A stretch of 9,879 nucleotides of DNA from contig PLYD01000174.1 in NCBI GenBank assembly GCA_003151665.1, forward strand, positions 1 to 9,879, written 5' to 3'. The notes below the pieces were generated by a model. The model was not told the DNA's origin and did no database searches. It saw nothing but the letters and a program-made list of their open reading frames with translations. This document shows positions 861-9,879 of the stretch, in pieces; within the stretch, counting starts at the first letter, position 1, and each line of letters starts with the position of its first letter. Source of the stretch: Candidatus Dormiibacterota bacterium (GTDB lineage: Bacteria; Chloroflexota; Dormibacteria; Dormibacterales; Dormibacteraceae). The position numbers and the translations under genes are program-made.

Positions 861-2033
861 CTACAAGCCGAACTCCCGCAGCACCTCTTCGGTGTGCTCG
901 CCGAGGTCCGGCGCGCGGCGCGCTGGCACCGGTGCCGCCGCGCCAAAACGCAATGGCGATCCGGCGGTCAGGAACCTGCCCAGCCACGGATGTGTGATCT
1001 CCGAGAACAGAGGGTTGGCGGTGGTGGCGCGCACGTCATCTGTCACCAGTTGCTTCAAGGTCTGGTATGGGCTCCACAACACGCCGTGGCCGTTAAAGGT
1101 CTCGCGAATCTCGGCGAGATCGTGCCGCGCGAACCATTCCTCCAGCAGGGCGAAAAGTGACTTGCGATGGATCCAGCGGTCGCTCTCATTTCGAAAATCC
1201 GCGCTGGCTCGCGACTCAAGCGCCACGAATTCACCGGCAAGTCCGGTGGCTTCACCCAGGCTCGCCCACTGTCTCGCGGTCAACGCAAGCACCATCACGC
1301 GTCGTCCATCGCGGGTGGTGAAATCCCGACCGAACGTGCCGTACACGTCATTGCCGAACCGACCGCGCGGCTGCGGCTCGAGAATCGCTTCGCCGATCAG
1401 GCCCAGGTGCCCGGCGACCGCAAGCCCCACATCCGACAGGCTCAGCTCGACCAGCTGTCCTTCACCATGGATGCGGCGGTGTCGCTCGGCTGCGAGGATT
1501 GCGAGCGCGGCGAGAAATCCCGTCATGCCATCCCACGCGGGCAGGACATGATTGACCGGACCCTCATGGCCCTCGGGTCCGGTGAGCCACGGAAAGCCGA
1601 GCGCCGCGTTGACCGTGTAGTCGACCGCGGTGCCGCCGTCGCGGTCGCCGGTGATGACGACCATGATCACGTCGGGCCGGAGCTTGGCGAGAGCTTCGTA
1701 CGAGTTCCAACCCTTGACCGGAAGGTTGGTTAGCACGATTCCTCCACCTTCTCCCGGCGCCGCGATGAGGCCGGCCACCTGCCTCTGCCCCACCTCAGTG
1801 CGCGTATCGACGACCACCGAGCGCTTGCCCTGGTTCAGGCCTGCCCAGTAAAGGCTGTGGTTGTTGTGCAAGGGCCAGCGCTTGAAATCGATTCCGCCGC
1901 CGGGCGGGTCCACACGGATCACGTCGGCACCGAGCGCCGCCAGGGTCGCGCCACCAAGCGGCGCCGCAATGAACGCCGACAGCTCGACCACGCGCAGCCC
2001 GGCGAGAATTGGCGTATCAGCTGGGCCTGGCAT
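861..2033 (-). CDS. mct: Class III CoA-transferase, 2-methylfumaryl-CoA isomerase (Mct)-like
   Basis: A 390-residue CaiB/BaiF family protein, the usual family length. The N-terminal part has the family Rossmann-like opening GLRVVELSAFIAAPLGG (12-28) and LGADVIRVDPPGGGIDFKRW (34-53). The catalytic Asp should be D168 in NHVLPAWDGMTG, followed by GEGQLVELSLSDVGLA (190-205). From memory, these details match the mesaconyl-C1-CoA/C4-CoA transferase (2-methylfumaryl-CoA isomerase) of the Chloroflexus 3-hydroxypropionate bicycle better than generic formyl-, succinyl- or carnitine-CoA transferases. Other matching pieces are WAGLNQGKRS, DGGTAVDYTVN, GTFGRDF and SPYQTL. Mct moves CoA within one molecule, from C1 to C4 of mesaconate. 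The ATG at 2033 overlaps the E1-alpha end by 17 bp and has GAGG nine bases upstream. The frame is open to 2366, but that extension is only shadow of E1-alpha. Class III transferase activity is near certain; isomerase specificity is inferred, and an itaconate or mesaconate CoA-transferase is the alternative. Confidence 0.85.
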   Translation of the reverse strand: MPGPADTPILAGLRVVELSAFIAAPLGGATLAALGADVIRVDPPGGGIDFKRWPLHNNHSLYWAGLNQGKRSVVVDTRTEVGQRQVAGLIAAPGEGGGIVLTNLPVKGWNSYEALAKLRPDVIMVVITGDRDGGTAVDYTVNAALGFPWLTGPEGHEGPVNHVLPAWDGMTGFLAALAILAAERHRRIHGEGQLVELSLSDVGLAVAGHLGLIGEAILEPQPRGRFGNDVYGTFGRDFTTRDGRRVMVLALTARQWASLGEATGLAGEFVALESRASADFRNESDRWIHRKSLFALLEEWFARHDLAEIRETFNGHGVLWSPYQTLKQLVTDDVRATTANPLFSEITHPWLGRFLTAGSPLRFGAAAPVPARRAPDLGEHTEEVLREFGL

Positions 2034-3054
2034 CGTCCAGGGCCTCAGCCCTCTGCTGCTGCAGGCGGGGCGGCAAAGTTTCGTAGACGTGTTCGAAGAT
2101 CGCCGCCGCTCCAGGCCTTGGTAGCTCCTCGACCTGTCGTTGCGCGGTCTCGATTGCGGACCGGATCTCGTTGAGCGCGGCTGCCTCCTGATCGGCCGAC
2201 CAGACACCCTCGCGGATCGCGAATCGCCGCACTCGTTCGATCGGGTCTCGCTGCTCTGCCTCGGCGATCTCTGCCGTATCGCGGTATTCCTTCGGGTTAT
2301 CGGACGTGTTGTGGAACCCCATGCGGTAGGTCCGGCATTCGATGAGCGTCGGTCCGCCTCCGGCAAGCGCCCGATTCACCGCATCGACGGTGGTCGCGTA
2401 AACAGCCAGGAGGTCGTTGCCATCGACCACGAACCCTGGAAAGCCGTAGCCCTCCGCGCGCGCGGCCAGCTCTGCTGCCGCGGTCTGCCTATGCACCGGG
2501 GTCGAGATGGCGTAGTGGTTGTTGATCAGCAGCATGACTAGCGGGACGCGCATGACGCCGGCGAGGTTCGAGGCCTCATGGAAATCGCCTTCCGATGAGG
2601 CGCCTTCCCCGAAGTACACGGCTACCACGCCGCCGGCTCGCCGCAGCTTCAGCGCCCAGGCAAGGCCAACCGCATGTGGCAGCTGCGCGCCGATCGACTG
2701 CTGGCGCGGCAGCAACCGCACGCCATCCGGGACGGCCGCTGCATCGAAGTTGCCCATGTACGTGGCGAACATGTTCTTTAGCGGCAGGCCGTGCCGCAGC
2801 ATCGCGGGGTGTTCGCGAGACGCGGGGACGATCCAGTCACGCTGGGGATCCAGCGCCATTGCGGATCCGATCACCGCTGCCTCCTGTCCGTGCACCGGGC
2901 CGTACACGCCGACTCGACCCATCCTCTGCAGCTTAATGAGCCGATCGTCGACCGCTCGCGAAAGCAGCATGAGGCGAAGGGCATCGACGACCTCATCGAG
3001 GCTCATGGGCGAGGATCCGCGAACCTTGCCGTCGATGCCGAGCAGCTCGATCAC
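2017..3054 (-). CDS. 2-oxoacid dehydrogenase E1 component, alpha subunit
   Basis: A 345-residue thiamine-diphosphate-binding E1 alpha subunit of the branched-chain 2-oxoacid/pyruvate/acetoin dehydrogenase family. With the beta subunit it forms an alpha2beta2 enzyme that decarboxylates a 2-oxoacid and passes the acyl group to lipoyl-E2. Visible marks are YGPVHGQEAA (51-60), RDWIVPASRE (72-81), QQSIGAQLPHAVGLAWA (118-134), the ThDP/Mg motif from G149 to N178-N179 (INNHYAISTP) and the regulatory-loop-like segment GFHNTSDNPKEYRD (246-259). The usual GDG of the cofactor motif reads GEG (149-151). The start is GTG, abutting the TGA of the beta gene, with GGAG six bases upstream. An ATG at codon 17 is less likely. 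Order is beta then alpha, the reverse of the mycobacterial bkd genes. No E2 or E3 gene lies in the window. The substrate (branched-chain oxoacid or pyruvate) cannot be read from the sequence. Confidence 0.92.
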   Translation of the reverse strand: MIELLGIDGKVRGSSPMSLDEVVDALRLMLLSRAVDDRLIKLQRMGRVGVYGPVHGQEAAVIGSAMALDPQRDWIVPASREHPAMLRHGLPLKNMFATYMGNFDAAAVPDGVRLLPRQQSIGAQLPHAVGLAWALKLRRAGGVVAVYFGEGASSEGDFHEASNLAGVMRVPLVMLLINNHYAISTPVHRQTAAAELAARAEGYGFPGFVVDGNDLLAVYATTVDAVNRALAGGGPTLIECRTYRMGFHNTSDNPKEYRDTAEIAEAEQRDPIERVRRFAIREGVWSADQEAAALNEIRSAIETAQRQVEELPRPGAAAIFEHVYETLPPRLQQQRAEALDDARPS

Positions 3055-4041
3055 TCAGTACTCCACCGTGGCACGCGTCGCGGCTACGATGCGACGCACC
3101 GACGGCAGGAAATAGTCCTCGAGGGAGCCCGGCGGATACGGGGTGTCCCGAGCCGCCACCCGGCGGATCGGAGCGTCGAGCGAACCGAACGCCTCCTGCT
3201 GGATGGTGGCCACGATCTCCGCTCCGAAACCTCCGGTCACAGGCGCCTCATGAACGACCAGGGCCTTGCCGCTTTCTACCACCGCCGCGATCAACCCGGC
3301 GACATCCAGCGGGACCAGGGTTCTGAGGTCGAGCACCGAGGCGGCCACGCCCTCCTGGGCCAGCTGGTCGGCAGCCGCCAGGCACAGGTGAACGGCCGCG
3401 CTCCAGGCGATGAGCACCACATCCTTACCTTCGCGGACGAGCCTCGACGAGCCGAAGGGCACTGTATGATCGCCGGCCGGAACCGGCCCGCGGATCGACC
3501 GGTAGAGCCTTTGCGGCTCGAGGTAGAGGACCGGGTCAGGATCGCGAATCGCCTCGAGGAGCAGGCCCTTCGCGTCGTCGGGAAAAGCAGGGCAGACGAT
3601 CTTCAGGCCGGGCGCTTGGACGAACTGGGCCTCGATCGCGTCAGGGTGAAACTCCGGCGTCCTCGTCCCGCCGCCGAAAGGCGCCCGGATCGTCACCTGG
3701 GCGCTGAAGCGCCCGCGCGAGCGGAATCGGTAGCGCGCGAGCTGCGGGCCGATCTGATGAAACGCCTGGTGCGTGAAGCCCAGGAACTGGACCTCCGCTA
3801 CAGGGACCATGCCGCCGATCGCCAGCCCCAGCGAGGCTCCGACGATCGCGCCCTCGGCGAGCGGCGTGTCGACCACCCGCTCAGGCCCGAACTTCTCCAT
3901 TAGCCCGCGCGTCACCCTGAAGACGCCGCCGAGCTGCCCGACGTCCATGCCCAGGACCATCACTCGCTCGTCGCGACTCATCTCGTCGACGAGGGCGCTC
4001 CGAATCGCTTCGAGGATCGAGAGCTCTGGCTGGTTGCTCAC
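3055..4041 (-). CDS. 2-oxoacid dehydrogenase E1 component, beta subunit
   Basis: A 328-residue transketolase-like beta subunit of a 2-oxoacid dehydrogenase, full length for the family. The N-terminal pyrimidine-binding part contains DTPLAEGAIVGASLGLAIGG (58-77), where the Glu of PLAE is expected to activate the thiamine ring, then QIGPQLARYRFRSRG, APFGGGTRTPEFHPDAIEAQF, PGLKIVCPAFPDDAKGLL and DPVLYLEPQRLYR. The C-terminal transketolase domain carries the SVLDLRTLVPLD, VVHEAPVTGGFGAEI and PYPPGSLEDYFLP segments. It partners the alpha subunit encoded directly downstream. Its GTG start overlaps the stop of the lyase gene in the sequence GTGA, a classic translational-coupling arrangement, and no strong ribosome-binding site stands alone. 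The substrate class (branched-chain oxoacid, pyruvate or acetoin) is undecided. Neighbours argue for either a branched-chain acyl-CoA route or disposal of pyruvate released by a citramalyl-CoA lyase. Confidence 0.93.
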   Translation of the reverse strand: MSNQPELSILEAIRSALVDEMSRDERVMVLGMDVGQLGGVFRVTRGLMEKFGPERVVDTPLAEGAIVGASLGLAIGGMVPVAEVQFLGFTHQAFHQIGPQLARYRFRSRGRFSAQVTIRAPFGGGTRTPEFHPDAIEAQFVQAPGLKIVCPAFPDDAKGLLLEAIRDPDPVLYLEPQRLYRSIRGPVPAGDHTVPFGSSRLVREGKDVVLIAWSAAVHLCLAAADQLAQEGVAASVLDLRTLVPLDVAGLIAAVVESGKALVVHEAPVTGGFGAEIVATIQQEAFGSLDAPIRRVAARDTPYPPGSLEDYFLPSVRRIVAATRATVEY

Positions 4042-4862
4042 CGGGGCATCGGGCTATGGCTCGCCCGCAGGAGCTGCTTCGCGCGCTCGGCCACTGGCCT
4101 GTCGACGAACTCGCCGGACGCGGTCTTCGTCGCCGCGCCGCCTGACTGTTCGAATGCCCGCAGCACCTGATTCGCCCAGGCCAGCTCTTCCGGCGTGGGC
4201 GTGAAAACCTCGTGGATGATCGGCACTTGGCGCGGATGGATGGCCGACTTGCCGAAGAACCCGAGCCGCTTCGCCGCTTCGGCCTCCTTGCGCAAGCCTT
4301 CGTCATCGTCGAGCTGCGGGTGCACGCCGTCGCTCGGCCTCGGCTTGCCCGCAGAGCGCGCCGCGACGACCAGGTGCGAGCGCGCATAGAGCGTCTCCTG
4401 CTCGCCGCCTGAGCTTCCGAGATCAGCCGCCAGGTCGAGGGCTCCGAAGGAGAGCAGCGTGCATGCCGGCGCGGAGGCGATCTCGAAAGCCATGAGCACG
4501 CCGCGTGCAGATTCGATGGTGCAATCGAGGTGGATGCCGGGTGCGCGCTCCGCAACCCACGCGACCTCGGTGGCCGACTCCACCTTGGGGATGCGAATCC
4601 CGGAAACGTTGCCAGCGATCGCGCCAAGGTCGCGCTCGCATTCTTCCGTCTGGGCTCGGTTGACACGGACCCAGCAGCGCTTGCTCGACGCGACCTCGGC
4701 CACCATATCGCGCGCGCGATCCTTCAAGGCGGCGGGCACGGCATCCTCGAGGTCCAGGAGGACGGCGTCCGCGCCCACATCGAAGACCTTGCCAAGAAGC
4801 TTCTCGTCGTGGCCGGGTGCGAAGAGCCAGCTCCGCGGCAGCTCTATGTCAGCCACGCGCAT
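4038..4862 (-). CDS. CitE/HpcH-family acyl-CoA lyase (citramalyl-CoA / 3-hydroxyacyl-CoA lyase type)
   Basis: A 274-residue TIM-barrel lyase of the HpcH/HpaI aldolase/citrate lyase beta family, the stand-alone CitE-like form. These enzymes cleave malyl-, beta-methylmalyl-, citramalyl- or 3-hydroxy-3-methylglutaryl-CoA, using Mg2+. Visible pieces are RSWLFAPGHDEKLLGK (10-25), AVLLDLEDAVP (33-43), WVRVN with R66, IRIPKVES (89-96), CTIESARG with metal-ligand candidate E117, LSFGALDLAADLG with D143 (137-149), and GFFGKSAIHPRQV (201-213). All expected active-site residues are present. ATG at 4862 is chosen because the family opening follows directly; codons back to 4916 are non-family and overlap the cupin end. 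The start overlaps the cupin stop by 14 bp and the stop overlaps the E1-beta start. The closest functional model is mycobacterial Rv2498c, reported to act in itaconate dissimilation and leucine catabolism. The real substrate here is inferred, not shown. Confidence 0.9.
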   Translation of the reverse strand: MRVADIELPRSWLFAPGHDEKLLGKVFDVGADAVLLDLEDAVPAALKDRARDMVAEVASSKRCWVRVNRAQTEECERDLGAIAGNVSGIRIPKVESATEVAWVAERAPGIHLDCTIESARGVLMAFEIASAPACTLLSFGALDLAADLGSSGGEQETLYARSHLVVAARSAGKPRPSDGVHPQLDDDEGLRKEAEAAKRLGFFGKSAIHPRQVPIIHEVFTPTPEELAWANQVLRAFEQSGGAATKTASGEFVDRPVAERAKQLLRASHSPMPR

Positions 4863-5226
4863 CGACCGGCCGCGCGAACGGTTCGTCTGGCGACGGCAGA
4901 GGCGTATTGAACGCAAGGTGAACCGTCGCCTCGGCGCCGCCGTTCCAGGATCGATGCGGAACCCCGGCCGGAAACACCACCAACGTCCCCGTGTCTGCGG
5001 TGTACGCCTGGCCGTTGATCTCCAGGCTCATAGTGCCGCTCAGGATGTAGAAGAGTTGGTCGACGACGTGGGTGTGCATCCCGGCCGGCGAGCCCTCGCC
5101 TGGCGGCGTCTTGATGCAGTTCACGCTGCAGCTTGTCGCTCCTGTGTCCCAATCCAAGAGTGGCTGGCTCACCCGGTGGTCGACCGCCGCGAGCTGCGCG
5201 AAATCGACCTTACGCAAATACTCCAC
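4849..5226 (-). CDS. Small single-domain cupin protein
   Basis: A 125-residue single-domain cupin of the Cupin_2 type. Motif 1 is seen around GMHTHVVDQLFYILSG (49-64), giving candidate metal ligands H51 and H53, with Gln57 where Glu is usual. Motif 2, GTLVVFPAGVPHRSWN (80-95), fits G-x5-P-x-G-x2-H-x3-N exactly and provides H91. A metal site of three His plus Gln is plausible, and from memory Gln in this place occurs in some other cupins such as KdgF. The GTG start is well supported by AGGAGG six bases upstream. The gene lies between the acyl-CoA dehydrogenase (41 bp gap) and the lyase (14 bp overlap), so it is very likely co-expressed and may act on, or sense, an intermediate of that pathway. 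Small cupins range from isomerases and dioxygenases to non-enzymatic binders, so no reaction is assigned. Confidence 0.88.
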   Translation of the reverse strand: MEYLRKVDFAQLAAVDHRVSQPLLDWDTGATSCSVNCIKTPPGEGSPAGMHTHVVDQLFYILSGTMSLEINGQAYTADTGTLVVFPAGVPHRSWNGGAEATVHLAFNTPLPSPDEPFARPVDARG

Positions 5227-5231
5227 GTGAT

Positions 5232-5238
5232 CCCTCCT
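5232..5238 (-). promoter_or_regulatory. Shine-Dalgarno of the cupin gene
   Basis: On the minus strand the sequence reads AGGAGGG, with AGGAGG ending six bases before the GTG at 5226. It is the strongest ribosome-binding site seen in the operon. It fixes the GTG as the cupin start and suggests that translation re-initiates efficiently after the 41-bp gap. Confidence 0.8.
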
Positions 5239-5267
5239 GTCAGGAATAGCGCCCTACGCGCGCCCGG

Positions 5268-6422
5268 CTAATGGTCGTCACGGACGAGCTGGCGGGCGAT
5301 CACGGTGCGGAGGATGTCGTTCGTGCCCTCGCCAATCGCCATCAGCGGCGCGTCGCGGTAAAACCGCTCGACCTCATATTCGGTGGAGTAGCCGTATCCA
5401 CCGTGGATCCGCATGGCCTCAAGAGAGGCGGTGATGCAGACCTCGGACGCGTAGAGCTTCGCCATCCCCGTCTCGAGATCGGCGCGCCGGCCTGAGTCGA
5501 GCGCGGAGGCCGCCCACCACGTAAGCAGCCGTGCCGCCTGCACCTCGGTCGCCATGTCCGCCAGCTTCAGCTGGATCGCCTGGAACTCCGCGATGGGACG
5601 GCCGAACGCATGGCGCTCGCGCGCGTAGGCAAGCGAGCGGTCGAGGCAGGCCTGCGCCACGCCTACGGCCCTGCCGGCGATATTGACGCGGCCGAACTCG
5701 AGTGCTGATAGCGCCTGCTGAAGCCCTTGGCCCTCCTCCCCGCCCAGCACGTTCTCGACCGGCACGCGACAGTCGCTCAAGAAAACTTCCGAGGACTCCG
5801 GCCCCTTGTAGCCCAGCTTGTCGAGGTCCTTGCCGACAGTGAAGCCCGGCGTCCCCTGCTCGATCATCAATACGGTCATGCCCCGATGGCGCGGCTGGGC
5901 GTTGGGATCGGTCTTGACCAGCACCGGAAGCGGGTCCGCGTGGCGCGCGTTGGTGATCCAGGTCTTCGAACCGTTGACGACGTAGTGGTCGCCCTCGCGC
6001 TTGGCCACCGTGGCGATGCCCTGGAGGTCGCTGCCCGCCTGTGGCTCGGTCAGCGCTATGCCCGAACGCCGCTTGCCGGTGGCGAGGTCCGGCAGCCAGC
6101 GGGCGCGCTGTTCAGGGGTGCCGAACTTAGACAGCATCAGCGTGGCCAGCGAGTGCGAGCCCAGGATCCCGGCCACACCCATCCAGGCCTTCGAGATCTC
6201 CTCGAAGACCACGGAATACGAGACCGCGTCGATGGCAATGCCCCCGTACTCTTCCGGCACAAGCATCCCGAACAGACCCATCGTCTTCATCTCTTCGACG
6301 ATCTCTTCTGGGTAGCGACCGGCCAGCTCCCACTCGCGGGCGACGGGGCTGATGCTCTTGCGGGCGAAGTCCCGAATCAGGTCGCGGAAGGCGGCCTGCT
6401 GCTCGGAAAGCTCGAAATCCAT
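5268..6422 (-). CDS. Acyl-CoA dehydrogenase
   Basis: A 384-residue FAD-dependent acyl-CoA dehydrogenase of normal family length, which introduces an alpha,beta double bond into an acyl-CoA and passes electrons to ETF. Visible marks are the N-terminal helical domain (1-115), the flavin-contacting GIALTEPQAGSDLQG (121-135) and WITNARHADPLPV in the beta domain, ARERHAFGRPIAEFQAIQ in the C-terminal helical domain, and EAMRIHGGYGYSTEYEVERF (335-354) leading to AIGEGTNDILR. The likely catalytic base is E365 in GEGTND. In the helix where isovaleryl-CoA and long-chain dehydrogenases keep their Glu, the sequence reads LEFGR, with Gly244 in that place. The enzyme therefore looks like the short-chain/2-methyl-branched type rather than a true isovaleryl-CoA dehydrogenase. 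ATG follows the MaoC stop after 3 bp. The substrate is unknown; a branched-chain acyl-CoA or methylsuccinyl-CoA would suit the neighbours, although known methylsuccinyl-CoA dehydrogenases are longer. Confidence 0.93.
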   Translation of the reverse strand: MDFELSEQQAAFRDLIRDFARKSISPVAREWELAGRYPEEIVEEMKTMGLFGMLVPEEYGGIAIDAVSYSVVFEEISKAWMGVAGILGSHSLATLMLSKFGTPEQRARWLPDLATGKRRSGIALTEPQAGSDLQGIATVAKREGDHYVVNGSKTWITNARHADPLPVLVKTDPNAQPRHRGMTVLMIEQGTPGFTVGKDLDKLGYKGPESSEVFLSDCRVPVENVLGGEEGQGLQQALSALEFGRVNIAGRAVGVAQACLDRSLAYARERHAFGRPIAEFQAIQLKLADMATEVQAARLLTWWAASALDSGRRADLETGMAKLYASEVCITASLEAMRIHGGYGYSTEYEVERFYRDAPLMAIGEGTNDILRTVIARQLVRDDH

Positions 6423-6425
6423 CGG

Positions 6426-6947
6426 CTAGTGCTTCGGCGCTTTCGCGCTCGGGTTCCCGTCACGACGCACCGGCGGCATTGCCGCGGCTTTTCGATAGAT
6501 GAGGGCGGTGCGCTTGAACGAGATCACCTCAGTGCCATTCTGGTTGAAGCCGGTCGTGCGCACGGTCACGATGCCGACGTTCGGTCGCGAGCGCGACTCG
6601 CGGATCTCGAGCACCTCCGAGCGCGAGTGAATGGTGTCCCCCTCGAACACCGGGTGGGGCAGGCGCACCTCGTCCCATCCGAGATTCGCCATCACATTCT
6701 GCGACACGTCGCTGACGCTCTGCCCCGTCACCAGCGAGAGCGTGAGGCAGCTGTTGACCAGGGGTTTTCCGAACTCGGTCTGCGCGGCGTACTGGTGGTC
6801 GAAGTGAATCGGCGCGGTGTTCTGGGTGAGCAGAGTGAACCAGATGTTGTCCGCGGTCGTGATCGTCCTGCCGAGCGCGTGCTCGTACACGTCACCGACC
6901 TCGAAGTCCTCGAAGAACCGGCCCCGCCATCCCTCTTTGACCGCCAT
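6426..6947 (-). CDS. MaoC-family enoyl-CoA hydratase (mesaconyl-/itaconyl-/methylglutaconyl-CoA hydratase type)
   Basis: A 173-residue hot-dog-fold MaoC-like hydratase and probably the first gene of the operon. The N-terminus GRFFEDFEVGDVYEHALGRT (9-28) is the typical MaoC opening. The active-site loop reads LLTQNTAPIHFDHQYA (39-54), with His48 in the place of the catalytic His and Asn43 where many (R)-hydratases have Asp. As I recall, members near mycobacterial Rv2499c and mesaconyl-CoA hydratases share an N-T-x-P-[IL]-H form. Further marks are the helix NSCLTLSLVTGQSVSD (65-80), VRLPHPVFEGDTIHSRSEVL (94-113) and a C-terminal strand ending FKRTALIY (144-151). It should hydrate a branched or dicarboxylic enoyl-CoA, giving the 3-hydroxyacyl-CoA that the CitE-like lyase cleaves. 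ATG at 6947 has only a weak GGCGG upstream. The exact substrate is inferred from neighbours. Confidence 0.9.
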   Translation of the reverse strand: MAVKEGWRGRFFEDFEVGDVYEHALGRTITTADNIWFTLLTQNTAPIHFDHQYAAQTEFGKPLVNSCLTLSLVTGQSVSDVSQNVMANLGWDEVRLPHPVFEGDTIHSRSEVLEIRESRSRPNVGIVTVRTTGFNQNGTEVISFKRTALIYRKAAAMPPVRRDGNPSAKAPKH

Positions 6948-7042
6948 CAGTTACCGCCGAGATCATGGCACGCATACGATTGTCATGGACAGCGTCGGGT
7001 CACGTGGCGGCACCACCGGCTAGTGCCGGCCACATCCCCCGG

Positions 7043-7070
7043 GTGACCTCCTCCCCTAATTATGTAGACT
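7043..7070 (+). promoter_or_regulatory. Candidate promoter of the marR-MFS pair
   Basis: GTGACC (7043-7048) as a -35-like box and TAGACT (7065-7070) as a -10-like box are 16 bp apart. Transcription would then begin at about 7077-7078, on or next to the GTG start. No purine-rich Shine-Dalgarno precedes that GTG, so a leaderless mRNA would be consistent. Both boxes are only moderate matches to the sigma-70 consensus. Confidence 0.35.
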
Positions 7071-7076
7071 AATTAG
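7056..7076. promoter_or_regulatory. Perfect inverted repeat, candidate MarR operator
   Basis: CTAATTA (7056-7062) and TAATTAG (7070-7076) are exact reverse complements separated by seven bases (TGTAGAC). The 21-bp AT-rich element stands out in GC-rich surroundings and has the size typical of MarR dimer sites. It overlaps the candidate -10 boxes of both strands and ends one base before the regulator's GTG start, so autorepression is the natural reading. Whether it also controls the operon on the left is open. Confidence 0.7.
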
Positions 7077-7077
7077 T

Positions 7078-7527
7078 GTGACTAACCAGTTGACGTCTGG
7101 TATCAGCAGTGCGGCGGAGGTCGCAGGCAACCTCCGGGTCGCTCTGATGCGTACGGTTCGGCGCCTGAAGCGCGAAACCGATGGGGGGCATTCGGTGTCG
7201 GTCATTGCCGCTCTGGCATCGGTCAACTCTCGCGGGCCCCTTACGCTGGGTGAACTGGCGGAGGCGGAAGGGGTATCGAGACCAAGCATGACGGTCCTCG
7301 CCGCCAGCCTTCTCGAGCAGAACCTCGTGGCCAGGGAGCTGGACTCAAGCGACGGCAGATTGGTTCGGGTTCGTATCACGCAGCTGGGCAAGCGAGTGCT
7401 TGAGCGCAGCCGGACCCGGCGTAATGCTTACCTTACGAAGCGTCTCGGGTCGCTCAGCGTGGAGGAGCTGCAGACGCTGGATCAAGCGGCGACGATACTG
7501 CTTCGTCTTGTAGAGGAAGGTTCGTGA
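7078..7527 (+). CDS. MarR-family transcriptional regulator
   Basis: A 149-residue winged-helix regulator of the MarR family, normal length. After an N-terminal dimerisation helix (about 13-35), the winged helix follows: SVSVIAALASV, then LTLGELAEAEGVSRPSMTVL (56-75) as the helix-turn-helix, LLEQNLVARELDSSDGRLVR (78-97) and VRITQLGKRVL (98-108) as the wing with its basic residues. The C-terminal helices (128-147) complete the dimer interface. GTG at 7078 is the start; no Shine-Dalgarno precedes it and the 21-bp inverted repeat abuts it. The stop overlaps the MFS start as GTGA, so the pair is co-transcribed. It most likely represses its own promoter and releases it when a phenolic or drug-like ligand binds. 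The ligand is unknown. Confidence 0.93.
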   Translation: MTNQLTSGISSAAEVAGNLRVALMRTVRRLKRETDGGHSVSVIAALASVNSRGPLTLGELAEAEGVSRPSMTVLAASLLEQNLVARELDSSDGRLVRVRITQLGKRVLERSRTRRNAYLTKRLGSLSVEELQTLDQAATILLRLVEEGS

Positions 7528-8819
7528 CCTCAGTCAGAGCTGGCTTCAGCCGGACGTTCGCATCGCTGCGCAACAGGAATTTCCGGATCTTCTTCACGGC
7601 TCAGATCGTCTCCGTGACCGGCACCTGGATGCAGTCAATTGCCCAGATGTGGTTGGTGCTGCACCTTACCGGAAGCGGTATCGCCCTCGGCATCACCGCT
7701 GCCCTTCAGTTCACGCCGATTCTCCTGTTCGGCACCTGGGGCGGCCTCCTCGCGGACCGGCTCGACAAGCGGAAGCTCCTGATGGTGACCCAGAGCGCGG
7801 CCGGCATTGTCGCGCTGGTGCTGGCGGGGCTCACTCTCGGCGGGGTTGTCCAGCTGTGGATGGTCTATGTGCTGGCGTTCTCATTGGGGATCGTCAACGT
7901 CTTTGACAACCCTGCGCGTCAGAGCTTCGTGACTGAGATGGTCGGCAAGGAGCAGATCACCAACGCCGTCGGCCTCAACAGCGCCGTGTTCACCTTGGCC
8001 CGCGTGATCGGGCCTGCAGTCGCCGGCGTCCTCATCGCGGTTGTGGGCACGGGATGGTGCTTCCTCTACAACGGCCTGTCGTACTTCCCGGTGGTGTTTG
8101 CGCTCCTTCTGATGCGTCCCTCGGAGCTCCATCGAGGCCTGCCGGCTCTCCGCGCCCGAGGCCAGATCAGAGCTGGGATTCGCTATGCCTGGAACCGCCC
8201 GGAACTCCGATTTCCGCTTCTTCTGATGCTTGTCGTGGGAACGCTTGCGTTCAATTTCTCGGTGCTGATGCCGCTCATGGCCAGGTTTGTTTTTAACTCA
8301 GGCGCCAGCACCTTCGGGCTTCTGATGTCCTTCATGGGTGCAGGCGCGTTCGTCGGTGCGCTTGTATCAGCCAATCGCGCGCGCCCTACCCACCGACTGC
8401 TTGCGTTCGCCGGCGTCGCCTTCGGTGGATTGCTGATCGGCGCAGCGCTGGCACCGACTTTGCCGATCGAGCTTCTCGTTCTCTTACCGATGGGGGCGGC
8501 GATGATCACGTTCCAGGCCACCGCCAACTCTCTGCTGCAGCTCAACTCTGACCCGGCCTTCAGGGGGCGAGTCATGGCTCTGTATGTGATGGTATTTCTG
8601 GGAACCACGCCCATCGGGGGTCCGATCGTTGGTTGGGTCGCCCAGCAATTTGGGGCACGAGTTGGCTTGGGACTCGGAGGCTTGGCCACGATCATCGGGT
8701 CGGCTGCCCTCCTATGGGGCCTTGGTCACTGGCACGTTGGCCAACTCAACCGCGTCACCGGCCCCTCGCCGATGGAAGCTGGGAATCGGCTGGCCAATTC
8801 GATAGGTTCGGATCTGTGA
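7524..8819 (+). CDS. MFS transporter, MFS_3 / EntS-like efflux type
   Basis: A 431-residue major facilitator with about 12 predicted membrane helices, of the transmembrane secretion effector (MFS_3, EntS-like) group, which includes siderophore and drug exporters. Visible marks are FASLRNRNFRIFFTAQIVS (12-30) opening helix 1, the motif A-like GGLLADRLDKRK (73-84) between helices 2 and 3, the group hallmark DNPARQSFVTEMV (128-140), and LNSAVFTLARVIGPAVAG (151-168). The second half repeats the fold from about residue 215. The GTG start overlaps the marR stop by 4 bp and has GGAAGG a few bases upstream. Co-expression with a MarR regulator suggests inducible, proton-driven export of a toxic or signalling compound across the inner membrane. 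The substrate cannot be told, and any link to the catabolic operon is only positional. Confidence 0.92.
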   Translation: MTSVRAGFSRTFASLRNRNFRIFFTAQIVSVTGTWMQSIAQMWLVLHLTGSGIALGITAALQFTPILLFGTWGGLLADRLDKRKLLMVTQSAAGIVALVLAGLTLGGVVQLWMVYVLAFSLGIVNVFDNPARQSFVTEMVGKEQITNAVGLNSAVFTLARVIGPAVAGVLIAVVGTGWCFLYNGLSYFPVVFALLLMRPSELHRGLPALRARGQIRAGIRYAWNRPELRFPLLLMLVVGTLAFNFSVLMPLMARFVFNSGASTFGLLMSFMGAGAFVGALVSANRARPTHRLLAFAGVAFGGLLIGAALAPTLPIELLVLLPMGAAMITFQATANSLLQLNSDPAFRGRVMALYVMVFLGTTPIGGPIVGWVAQQFGARVGLGLGGLATIIGSAALLWGLGHWHVGQLNRVTGPSPMEAGNRLANSIGSDL

Positions 8820-8844: not shown

Positions 8845-9879
8845 TTATTTTCTGGGCCCGGCTGCCGCCTTCTTCAAAATCACCACGGATCGAGTTGAGG
8901 TCGTTATCCGCTCGGACACCTCTGCGGGATCCGTCTCCGGCTGAAGGCGGGCGGTGTCGAGGACCAGCAGCCATGTCGTCCCAAAGGCGGCCGGAATCGT
9001 CCAGTCGACAGGTTCCGCCTGCGCATTGAACAGCAGAACGAATGAATCATCGATGATCGCCCGACCACGATCATCGTGCGTCTGAATCGCTCTACCGTTC
9101 AGAAAAACGCCAAGCGAGCGCGCGTGACCTGCCGTCCAGTCCTCGTCGGTCATCGATTGGCCGTCAGGCTGGAACCAACCGATATCCACAGTGCCGCGAA
9201 TTGGCCGGCCCTGGAACCACCGGCGGCGACGAAAGACAGGATGTTCGCGGCGGAAGGCAATGAACCAGCGGGTGAATTCGAGGAGGGGCCTGTCGACCGC
9301 GGACCAGTTCACCCATGAGACCTTGTTGTCCTGGCACCAAGCATTGTTATTGCCCCCCTGAGTCCTGCCCAGCTCGTCGCCCGCGAGCAACATCGGCACT
9401 CCCTGGGCAAGGAAAAGGGTCGCCAGGAAATTTCGCTGCTGCTGAGATCGGCAGCCCAGCACGCCCTGGTCATTCGTCTTGCCTTCTGCGCCGCAATTCC
9501 ACGATCGGTTGTGCGATTCGCCGTCGGCGTTTTGCTCCGCATTTGCCTTGTTGTGCTTCTCGTTGTATGAGACGAGGTCGAGCAGGGTGAAGCCATCGTG
9601 CGCGGTCGCGAAATTCACGCTCGCGCCGGGCCGGCGGGTATCACTCTGGTACAGGTCGGAGCTGCCCGTGAGCCGCGAGGCGAACTCCGCGACAGTCGAG
9701 GGCTCGCCTCGCCAGAAGTCACGCACTGTATCTCGGAAGCGGCCATTCCATTCCGACCACAGAGCCGGGAAGTTGCCCACCTGGTAACCGCCCTCTCCGA
9801 TATCCCAGGGCTCGGCAATCAGCTTGACGCGGCTGACAATGGGGTCCTGCTGGATGAGATCGAAGAAGGTCGATAACCT
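8845..9879 (-). CDS. glgX: Glycogen debranching enzyme (GlgX/TreX type), 3' part
   Basis: The last 344 residues of a GH13 glycogen/maltodextrin debranching enzyme (isoamylase type), which hydrolyses alpha-1,6 branches in glycogen. The frame stays open to the right edge, so the first half, with the carbohydrate-binding N-domain and catalytic nucleophile Asp, is outside. Numbering from the edge, KLIAEPWDIGEGGYQVGNFP (19-38) carries the acid/base Glu (E23), and NFATAHDGFTLLDLVSYNEK (89-108) carries the third catalytic carboxylate (D95). QGVPMLLAGDELGRTQGGNN (159-178) and CQDNKVSWVNW (182-192) are standard GlgX segments, followed by a C-terminal beta domain ending at a TAA. The GTG at 9780 is internal, because family sequence continues unbroken upstream. 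It converges on the MFS gene and appears unrelated to the acyl-CoA operon. Confidence 0.95.
   Translation of the reverse strand, partial: RLSTFFDLIQQDPIVSRVKLIAEPWDIGEGGYQVGNFPALWSEWNGRFRDTVRDFWRGEPSTVAEFASRLTGSSDLYQSDTRRPGASVNFATAHDGFTLLDLVSYNEKHNKANAEQNADGESHNRSWNCGAEGKTNDQGVLGCRSQQQRNFLATLFLAQGVPMLLAGDELGRTQGGNNNAWCQDNKVSWVNWSAVDRPLLEFTRWFIAFRREHPVFRRRRWFQGRPIRGTVDIGWFQPDGQSMTDEDWTAGHARSLGVFLNGRAIQTHDDRGRAIIDDSFVLLFNAQAEPVDWTIPAAFGTTWLLVLDTARLQPETDPAEVSERITTSTRSVVILKKAAAGPRK

Follow-up and report, generated by a model that had tools for sequence, protein, structure and literature searches.

A tightly packed operon occupies positions 861-6947 on the minus strand of the window, by which we mean the whole 9,879-nucleotide stretch that was analyzed; the DNA comes from an uncultured member of the phylum Dormibacterota. 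Its first gene codes for a MaoC-type, RipB/Ich-like hydratase (6426-6947; Pfam MC_hydratase/MaoC, NCBIfam RipB_Ich). Genes follow for an acyl-CoA dehydrogenase, the proposed methylsuccinyl-CoA dehydrogenase (5268-6422; Pfam Acyl-CoA_dh domains), a small Cupin_2 protein (4849-5226; Pfam PF07883), and a CitE/HpcH-type lyase, the proposed citramalyl-CoA lyase (4038-4862; Pfam HpcH_HpaI). The lyase open reading frame spans 4038-4916, and the ATG at 4862 is its likely start. The E1 beta (3055-4041; Pfam Transket_pyr/Transketolase_C) and E1 alpha (2017-3054; Pfam E1_dh, TIGR03181) subunits of a 2-oxoacid dehydrogenase are encoded next, and the operon closes with a CaiB-type gene for an Mct-type family III CoA transferase resembling 2-methylfumaryl-CoA isomerase (861-2033). 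The open reading frame coordinates leave gaps of 3, 41, and 0 bp and overlaps of 14, 4, and 17 bp at the junctions. Upstream, the operon is bounded by a divergent plus-strand pair at 7078-8819, a MarR-family regulator (7078-7527; Pfam MarR) and an MFS transporter (7524-8819; Pfam MFS_3/MFS_1), and the 130 bp in between (6948-7077) are the presumed promoter region. Pfam and NCBIfam profile matches bore out the open reading frames and family assignments of a preliminary description of this DNA, whose gene list lacked the cupin between dehydrogenase and lyase.

The same genes are found together in related genomes. One Dormibacterota locus (L018) has the gene order of the window, and the MaoC-dehydrogenase-CitE core recurs in further Dormibacterota, so the grouping is more than chance. 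tblastn matches to the cupin were present at L018, L039, and L040, and none were found at L019, L020, or L032. Window-type CitE (at least 70%) occurs in 8 of 15 genomes with Mct versus none of 9 without it. The seven Mct genomes without this lyase are G008, G015, G018, G028, G032, G056, and G060. The Mct gene lies among unrelated genes in genus g2, G008, and G015, and in g2 it stands apart from the MaoC-ACAD-CitE triad. At three other loci (L021, L022, and L024) the Mct-type gene adjoins a dehydrogenase that is 61-65% identical to 8ciw, named (2S)-methylsuccinyl-CoA dehydrogenase.

The CoA transferase and its relation to Mct

We compared the transferase with NCBIfam families and solved structures. 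It scored 461 bits against TIGR04253 (2-methylfumaryl-CoA isomerase) and 110 bits against the second-best family, in agreement with the earlier claim that a protein resembling this isomerase is present. The score is below the curated equivalog cut-off of 725 bits, as are those of the three other members of the same superclade that were scored (L072, 497; L033, 587; L075, 397). The protein matched Mct from C. aurantiacus (8apq) with 446 bits and is 54% identical to the solved Chloroflexus/Roseiflexus enzymes. In the tree it falls inside an Mct superclade of 32 of the 41 rows, which is set off by a long stem with 100/100 support. It lies outside the 16-row sub-clade that holds both solved enzymes and sits in a Dormibacterota branch. 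The kinship of the CaiB-like protein with characterized Mct thus stands for the superclade and fails for the sub-clade. The superclade may have a wider substrate range, since its members L076 and L078 belong to other acyl-CoA clusters.

Asp165, Arg47, and Tyr136 are kept in the window transferase and in all 32 superclade rows. Arg47 and Tyr136 also aligned in four of the nine remaining rows (L034b and L050-L052), which ruled out this pair as a stand-alone Mct marker. An identical five-residue deletion next to Tyr136 is shared with the solved enzymes. At the positions of Mct Leu43, Arg75, Phe101, and Arg104 the window protein has I, R, L, and K, respectively, keeping only Arg75, and it has Gly where R. 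castenholzii MCT has Arg314. The window protein therefore differs from solved Mct in some cork residues as well as in its separate branch. Its hydratase and lyase steps are proposed to run as they do downstream of Mct, but its operon contains a dehydrogenase and E1 and lacks Mch.

The window transferase stands where Ict does in the pseudomonad itaconate/methylsuccinate cluster ich-mcd-mmgE-ict-ccl (PMC12290011). The transferase apart, that five-gene cluster resembles the window operon in combining, by family, hydratase, dehydrogenase, and citramalyl-CoA lyase types and in ending at pyruvate and acetyl-CoA. In the window operon the transferase holds the corresponding place. It might accordingly be an activating intermolecular enzyme for imported methylsuccinate, itaconate, or mesaconate, with no intramolecular switch. 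The operon has no other activating enzyme, and an orthologous Liv-type importer adjoins 6 of the 11 cassette loci examined. We nevertheless regard an Ict role as unlikely: the protein is 54% identical to Mct and belongs to one superclade with it, and the intermolecular activity of Mct is lower by over six orders of magnitude (PMC9813914). The CoA transferases of MmgE- or Fum-type clusters (L047 and L050-L053, n = 5), which fill the Ict slot there, are distant in the tree, lie outside the superclade, and are 25-27% identical to the window protein, which is not of their types. The window operon further differs from the pseudomonad cluster in having an Mct-type protein and E1 in place of the MmgE isomerase and the Ict-type transferase; Pfam found no MmgE gene among the window proteins scanned. 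In a check of MmgE neighbors elsewhere, L081 and L082 yielded MmgE-type matches and nothing else, and L083 showed a different context. At L050 the name MmgE comes solely from the annotation, and the protein had no NCBIfam match at 1e-20.

Dehydrogenase, hydratase, and lyase

The window dehydrogenase is 67% identical to that of a Rhodococcus MaoC-CaiB-MmgE-ACAD-CitE cluster and 40% identical to the (2S)-methylsuccinyl-CoA dehydrogenase of the ethylmalonyl-CoA pathway (PMC5798300). It shares with the latter the catalytic Glu (MCAD-type), the equivalent of Arg421, and the proposed oxidation of methylsuccinyl-CoA, but lacks the N-terminal extension and the Arg252 and Ala285 of PdMCD, the known C1-specific enzyme. 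Clusters of the kind known from C. necator and P. aeruginosa hold two dehydrogenase types, the window type in L050-L052 and one lacking the catalytic Glu in L046, L047, and L053; the second type also occurs beside a hydratase in L074. Because both types are present, we dropped the attempt to infer C4-specificity of the window enzyme from the dehydrogenase of those two species. Ccr (TIGR01751) scored over its cut-off in 3 of 24 genomes (G005, G056, and G060) and in none of the five cassette genomes (G001, G012, G021, G025, and G032), which ruled out the ethylmalonyl-CoA pathway as their source of methylsuccinyl-CoA. G056 and G060 contain other Mct-type genes in addition to Ccr.

The MaoC protein is a proposed mesaconyl-C4-CoA hydratase, judging from its sequence. 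It is an Ich-like protein of 173 aa that scored 206 bits against RipB_Ich (cut-off 340), and its best PDB match is 8hgn, a beta-methylmalyl-CoA dehydratase. Mct is an enzyme of the 3-hydroxypropionate bi-cycle (PMC6593406, PMC9813914), and the operon could in principle serve the second half of that cycle, the co-assimilation of propionyl-CoA and glyoxylate, as proposed for Kentron. In favor of this, the Mct gene of a related genome (G060) is immediately preceded by one for a protein of 343 aa, half of which is MaoC-like (32% to the window MaoC; no NCBIfam match at 1e-20). By Pfam, however, the window MaoC is single-domain and not the double-hotdog mesaconyl-C1-CoA hydratase looked for beside Mct, and the dehydrogenase would be idle. 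Co-assimilation is therefore highly improbable.

The lyase scored 153 bits against citE and 148 bits against RipC_Ccl, both below cut-off, and 125 bits against 6aq4 ('citrate lyase subunit beta-like protein'), which we take to be Rv2498c. The neighbors of Rv2498c in the mycobacterial leucine/itaconate locus are presumably MaoC, dehydrogenase, and E1 genes, a parts list similar to that of the window. The window operon might then function in leucine-type catabolism, with E1 forming isovaleryl-CoA, MaoC and CitE acting on 3-methylglutaconyl- and (R)-HMG-CoA, and a carboxylase encoded elsewhere. In addition to acting on the itaconate side, Rv2498c and PA0883 do cleave (R)-HMG-CoA (PMC6689899), and each of five cassette genomes has 6-7 PF01039 matches away from the cassette. 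Our comparison with this locus covered the lyase only, and the searched text of PMC6689899 contained no description of the Rv2498c gene neighborhood. The window dehydrogenase does not fit such a pathway, since the Glu base that it retains, along with the Arg421 equivalent, is missing in isovaleryl-CoA dehydrogenase (PMC5798300). The Mct-type protein would also have no role, and the cluster lacks a carboxylase.

The preliminary description had noted that the usual acyl-CoA carboxylase genes are absent, and our searches agree. None was found among the 10 window proteins profiled, and visual inspection of the genes called in the G001 flanks, ten of which were profiled, showed none either. PF01039 had no match on the cassette contig in any of the five cassette genomes searched, three of these contigs being short (5-27 kb). 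A carboxylase just outside the window was thus not found in these relatives. Taken with the dehydrogenase residues, these results make a leucine-type function quite unlikely.

The E1 component and a candidate route

E1 alpha is nearest to pyruvate dehydrogenase models (TIGR03181, 385 bits; cut-off 411), and its best structure match is pyruvate dehydrogenase E1 (1w85). The operon contains no E2 gene; G001 has four E2-type genes elsewhere in its genome. Of the 15 Mct genomes, 5 have a window-type E1 within 10 kb of an Mct gene; a simple Poisson estimate from 16 E1 copies predicts 0.1 such pairs. E1 is missing from four of six sister cassettes (G012, G025, UBA4719, and G032-C55), and neither G012 nor G025 has an E1 of the window subfamily (best match about 40%).

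Related gene sets occur outside Dormibacterota. A Sinorhizobium mexicanum plasmid (L075) carries a complete string of Mcd-type, Mct-type, FAS1-type hydratase, Ccl-like (citramalyl-CoA-lyase-type) lyase, and ETF beta/alpha genes. Its Mcd-type protein is 60.7% identical to PdMCD and agrees with it at all nine positions compared. This independent string lends weight to the Mcd-Mct-hydratase-lyase route drawn in the preliminary description. Two Azospirillum plasmids (L072 and L073) combine an OGDH-type E1 with Mcd-type (69% to PdMCD), LysR, SDR, and Mct-type genes; the E1 carries this name in the annotation of both plasmids, and that of L072, the one scored, reached 824 bits (cut-off 770).

We propose that the gene products make up the lower part of a pathway degrading C5-dicarboxyl-CoA, in which the Mct-type intramolecular transferase shifts CoA from C1 to C4 on a branched diacid, and we give this core route a probability of roughly 55%. 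The dehydrogenase would convert methylsuccinyl-CoA to mesaconyl-CoA, and Mct would exchange the C1 for the C4 ester, either at the mesaconyl-CoA stage or perhaps as early as methylsuccinyl-CoA. MaoC would then hydrate mesaconyl-C4-CoA to citramalyl-CoA, which the CitE-type lyase would cleave to pyruvate and acetyl-CoA. Where present, E1 most likely acts upstream, presumably with an E2 borrowed from elsewhere in the genome, forming the C1 ester by oxidative decarboxylation of a 3-methyl-branched 2-oxo-diacid. The switch would be needed because a C1 ester from E1 cannot otherwise enter the known C4 route; PMC12290011 describes methylsuccinyl-C1-CoA as a dead end where the C4-type pathway is concerned.

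The preliminary description had E1 oxidizing the product pyruvate. The same core route could indeed operate with E1 downstream, or with E1 serving an unrelated 2-oxo acid and merely co-transcribed, and only the role of E1 would differ. We consider this possible, though doubtful. The resemblance of E1 to pyruvate dehydrogenase and its absence from most sister cassettes, which weighs against an upstream role, fit such an arrangement, as does the pyruvate oxidase gene poxB adjoining a Paraburkholderia RipB-type cluster. It is opposed by the lack of E2 in the operon and by the Azospirillum plasmids, where the E1 is of the diacid-acting kind, and an E1 that burns pyruvate leaves the need for a C1-to-C4 switch unexplained. 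The comparative evidence thus makes it more likely that E1 feeds the route, from a branched 2-oxo-diacid to methylsuccinyl-C1-CoA, and the assignment to pyruvate should probably be revised.

With E1 upstream, we tentatively suggest an undescribed catabolic route for methyl-branched 2-oxo-diacids such as 3-methyl-2-oxoglutarate from 3-methylglutamate. E1 would yield methylsuccinyl-C1-CoA, the dehydrogenase would form mesaconyl-C1-CoA, and the Mct-type enzyme would rescue it into citramalyl-CoA cleavage. Such a route may have at least two origins, one with alpha-beta E1 (Dormibacterota) and one with OGDH-type E1 (Azospirillum). Mct had been expected to serve a distinct use here; its occurrence outside autotrophy is already in print (PMC6593406), and we found no published description of an operon of this kind in the open-licence PMC literature. 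ThnP/ThnO of anaerobic naphthalene degradation (PMC11659651) offer a parallel, in that an intramolecular CoA transferase makes the correct carboxyl available to an acyl-CoA dehydrogenase, but ThnP belongs to family I rather than family III, and its substrate is larger and cyclic.

If the proposed route is correct, intramolecular CoA transfer would be a general catabolic strategy by which unsymmetric diacids esterified to CoA at the wrong end are rescued, beyond one CO2-fixation cycle. Through a part that the operon would supply, pyruvate and acetyl-CoA could be reached from the C1-ester methylsuccinyl-CoA of the ethylmalonyl-CoA pathway. The Sinorhizobium mexicanum plasmid provides a complete candidate operon in a cultured organism, and many proteins automatically named 2-methylfumaryl-CoA isomerase may have this function.

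Operon content and placement of the transferase

Among the genomes compared, the closest to the window was the Dormibacterota genome G001, with 30% of sampled 31-letter words in common; its transferase was 95% identical to that of the window. The operon (861-6947, minus strand) contains seven genes head to tail, coding for MaoC, an acyl-CoA dehydrogenase (ACAD), a cupin, a CitE-type lyase, E1beta, E1alpha and a CaiB-type CoA transferase. Three of the junctions are overlaps, and no gap exceeds 41 bp. ORF and family analysis upheld the families named in the preliminary description and added a gene it had left out, the cupin (4849-5226, between the dehydrogenase and lyase genes), which is present in some sister cassettes and missing from others. 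Genes for a MarR regulator and an MFS transporter run divergently from the operon. Directly past the transferase gene, on the same strand, a gene for a DUF347 membrane protein (49-834) may be co-transcribed with the operon. The frame of an ORF at 8845-9780 is closed upstream inside the window; read by eye, its product presumably resembles a glycogen-debranching enzyme in its C-terminal portion.

The transferase scored 461 bits against TIGR04253 (2-methylfumaryl-CoA isomerase, Mct), below the curated cut-off of 725; the second-best model scored 110. The best solved chains were 8apq (C. aurantiacus Mct, 446 bits) and 7xkg (R. castenholzii, 445), and the third, succinate-HMG CoA transferase, reached 95 bits. 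A 41-row tree placed the protein, earlier called Mct-like, in the Mct superclade (32 rows, support 100/100, long stem). There it belongs to a 12-row branch of Dormibacterota sequences (100/99), whereas both solved enzymes fall in a separate 16-row clade (99/99). A 35-row tree agreed (superclade 100/100, 12-row branch 100/99). Asp165, Arg47 and Tyr136 are present in all 32 superclade rows. Arg at 47 and Tyr at 136 also aligned in L034b and L050-L052, four of the nine rows beyond the superclade, so these two residues alone are not diagnostic of Mct. The cork positions 43, 75, 101 and 104 are I, R, L and K, and position 314 is G. Judged from its sequence, the transferase has a good probability of functioning like Mct; we do not class it as an Mct equivalog.

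Superclade genes at L076 and L078 lie amid acyl-CoA dehydrogenase and enoyl-CoA hydratase genes, with a thiolase added in L076 and an HMG-CoA lyase and Liv importer in L078. Given these contents, the substrate range of the superclade may be wider than mesaconyl-CoA. In Cupriavidus sp. EM10 (L074:8944-11337), an Mct-type gene is followed directly by a double-hotdog mesaconyl-CoA-hydratase-like gene, and genes of ich/mcd and ict/ccl type flank the pair.

Cassettes and E1 linkage in Dormibacterota

An Mct-superclade match (at least 240 bits; best match below this threshold, 126 bits) was found in 15 of 61 relatives searched. The proposed survey for the same gene order recovered that of the window in L018 (genome G021). 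E1 was missing from four of six sister cassettes and present in two. G012, G025 and UBA4719 (the last with a record under the name Actinobacteria) carry MaoC-ACAD-(cupin)-CitE-CaiB without E1, and G032 has the order CitE-CaiB-MaoC-ACAD with a distant CitE (35%). The G001 operon is broken between CitE and E1beta by ~12 kb of other genes (L039:4000-16100; amidase, amino-acid permease, SDR, aminotransferase, cyclase and GntR); neither the window nor L018 has such an insert at this position. Four genus-g2 genomes (G003, G016, G026, G030) carry the Mct gene apart from the MaoC-ACAD-CitE triad, and in G008 and G015 unrelated genes surround the Mct gene.

Window-type CitE (at least 70% identity) occurred in 8 of 15 Mct genomes, compared with none of nine non-Mct genomes taken from 46 available; for MaoC the counts were 13 of 15 and two of nine. 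Window-type CitE was not found in seven of the 15 (G008, G015, G018, G028, G032, G056, G060). Liv-type importer orthologues adjoin 6 of 11 cassette loci examined (a contig end precludes a call at L020), which suggests that the cassette substrate is imported.

The E1alpha subfamily of the window (at least 50%) lay within 10 kb of the Mct gene in five of 15 Mct genomes (G001, G018, G021, G032, G056), in a search that took in 14 of them (all except G026). With 16 E1alpha copies counted, two of them partial, a simple Poisson estimate gives 0.1 expected E1-Mct pairs. If G001 and G021 are counted as a single event, four pairs remain (P ~4e-6, by a Poisson estimate that ignores general clustering of catabolic genes). 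An E2 gene adjoins E1 in G056. The window's E1 subfamily was not found anywhere in the G012 or G025 genomes, which argues against a fixed E1 role.

Plasmid loci and a proposed route

The preliminary description drew a route from methylsuccinyl-CoA through dehydrogenase, Mct, MaoC and CitE to pyruvate, to be oxidized by E1. Gene strings on plasmids made this route concrete and also suggested a different place for E1. A Sinorhizobium mexicanum plasmid (L075:6306-15055) carries on one strand genes for a D-2-hydroxyacid dehydrogenase, Mcd-type, Mct-type, FAS1-type hydratase, Ccl-like lyase, ETF beta, ETF alpha and LeuC-type proteins. Its Mcd-type dehydrogenase is 60.7% identical to PdMCD, the known C1-specific (2S)-methylsuccinyl-CoA dehydrogenase (PMC5798300), with 9 of 9 compared positions identical, and its Mct-type protein is 45% identical to the window transferase. 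The Mcd-Mct-hydratase-lyase-ETF string is complete in L075, which appears to be the best cultured candidate for the proposed route.

Azospirillum plasmids from two species (L072, L073) carry an OGDH-type E1 (family profile-tested in L072), an Mcd-type dehydrogenase (69% to PdMCD), LysR, SDR and an Mct-type gene; MaoC and CitE of the queried kinds were not found within these stretches. In L072:13605-31552 and L073 these genes form one arm of a divergent catabolic cluster; on the other arm, opposite E1, Mcd and Mct-type genes, lie those for a TRAP importer, a PanE-like reductase, a GlcD-like oxidase and a 2,5-dioxovalerate-dehydrogenase-like ALDH. On plasmids L021, L022 and L024, an Mct-type gene has as its neighbour a dehydrogenase gene whose product is 61-65% identical to 8ciw, a PDB entry under the name (2S)-methylsuccinyl-CoA dehydrogenase.

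2-Oxoacid dehydrogenases catalyze oxidative decarboxylation. If its substrate were 3-methyl-2-oxoglutarate, as we infer, E1 would yield methylsuccinyl-C1-CoA; Mct would shift the CoA to C4, and hydration by MaoC and then cleavage by CitE would follow. The dehydrogenase could act before or after Mct: the window dehydrogenase keeps Arg421 and the catalytic Glu of PdMCD and not Arg252 and Ala285, and ThnP/ThnO (PMC11659651) offer a precedent for a transferase acting ahead of the dehydrogenase. The pseudomonad itaconate/methylsuccinate route (ich-mcd-mmgE-ict-ccl) uses C4 esters, and methylsuccinyl-C1-CoA is called a dead end there (PMC12290011).

Published work already places Mct outside autotrophy (PMC6593406) and describes a pair of intramolecular transferase and dehydrogenase, with another transferase family (PMC11659651). 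In the portion of the open-licence PMC literature covered, we met no description of a methylsuccinate-type operon, with or without E1, in which Mct replaces the transferase Ict and the isomerase MmgE.
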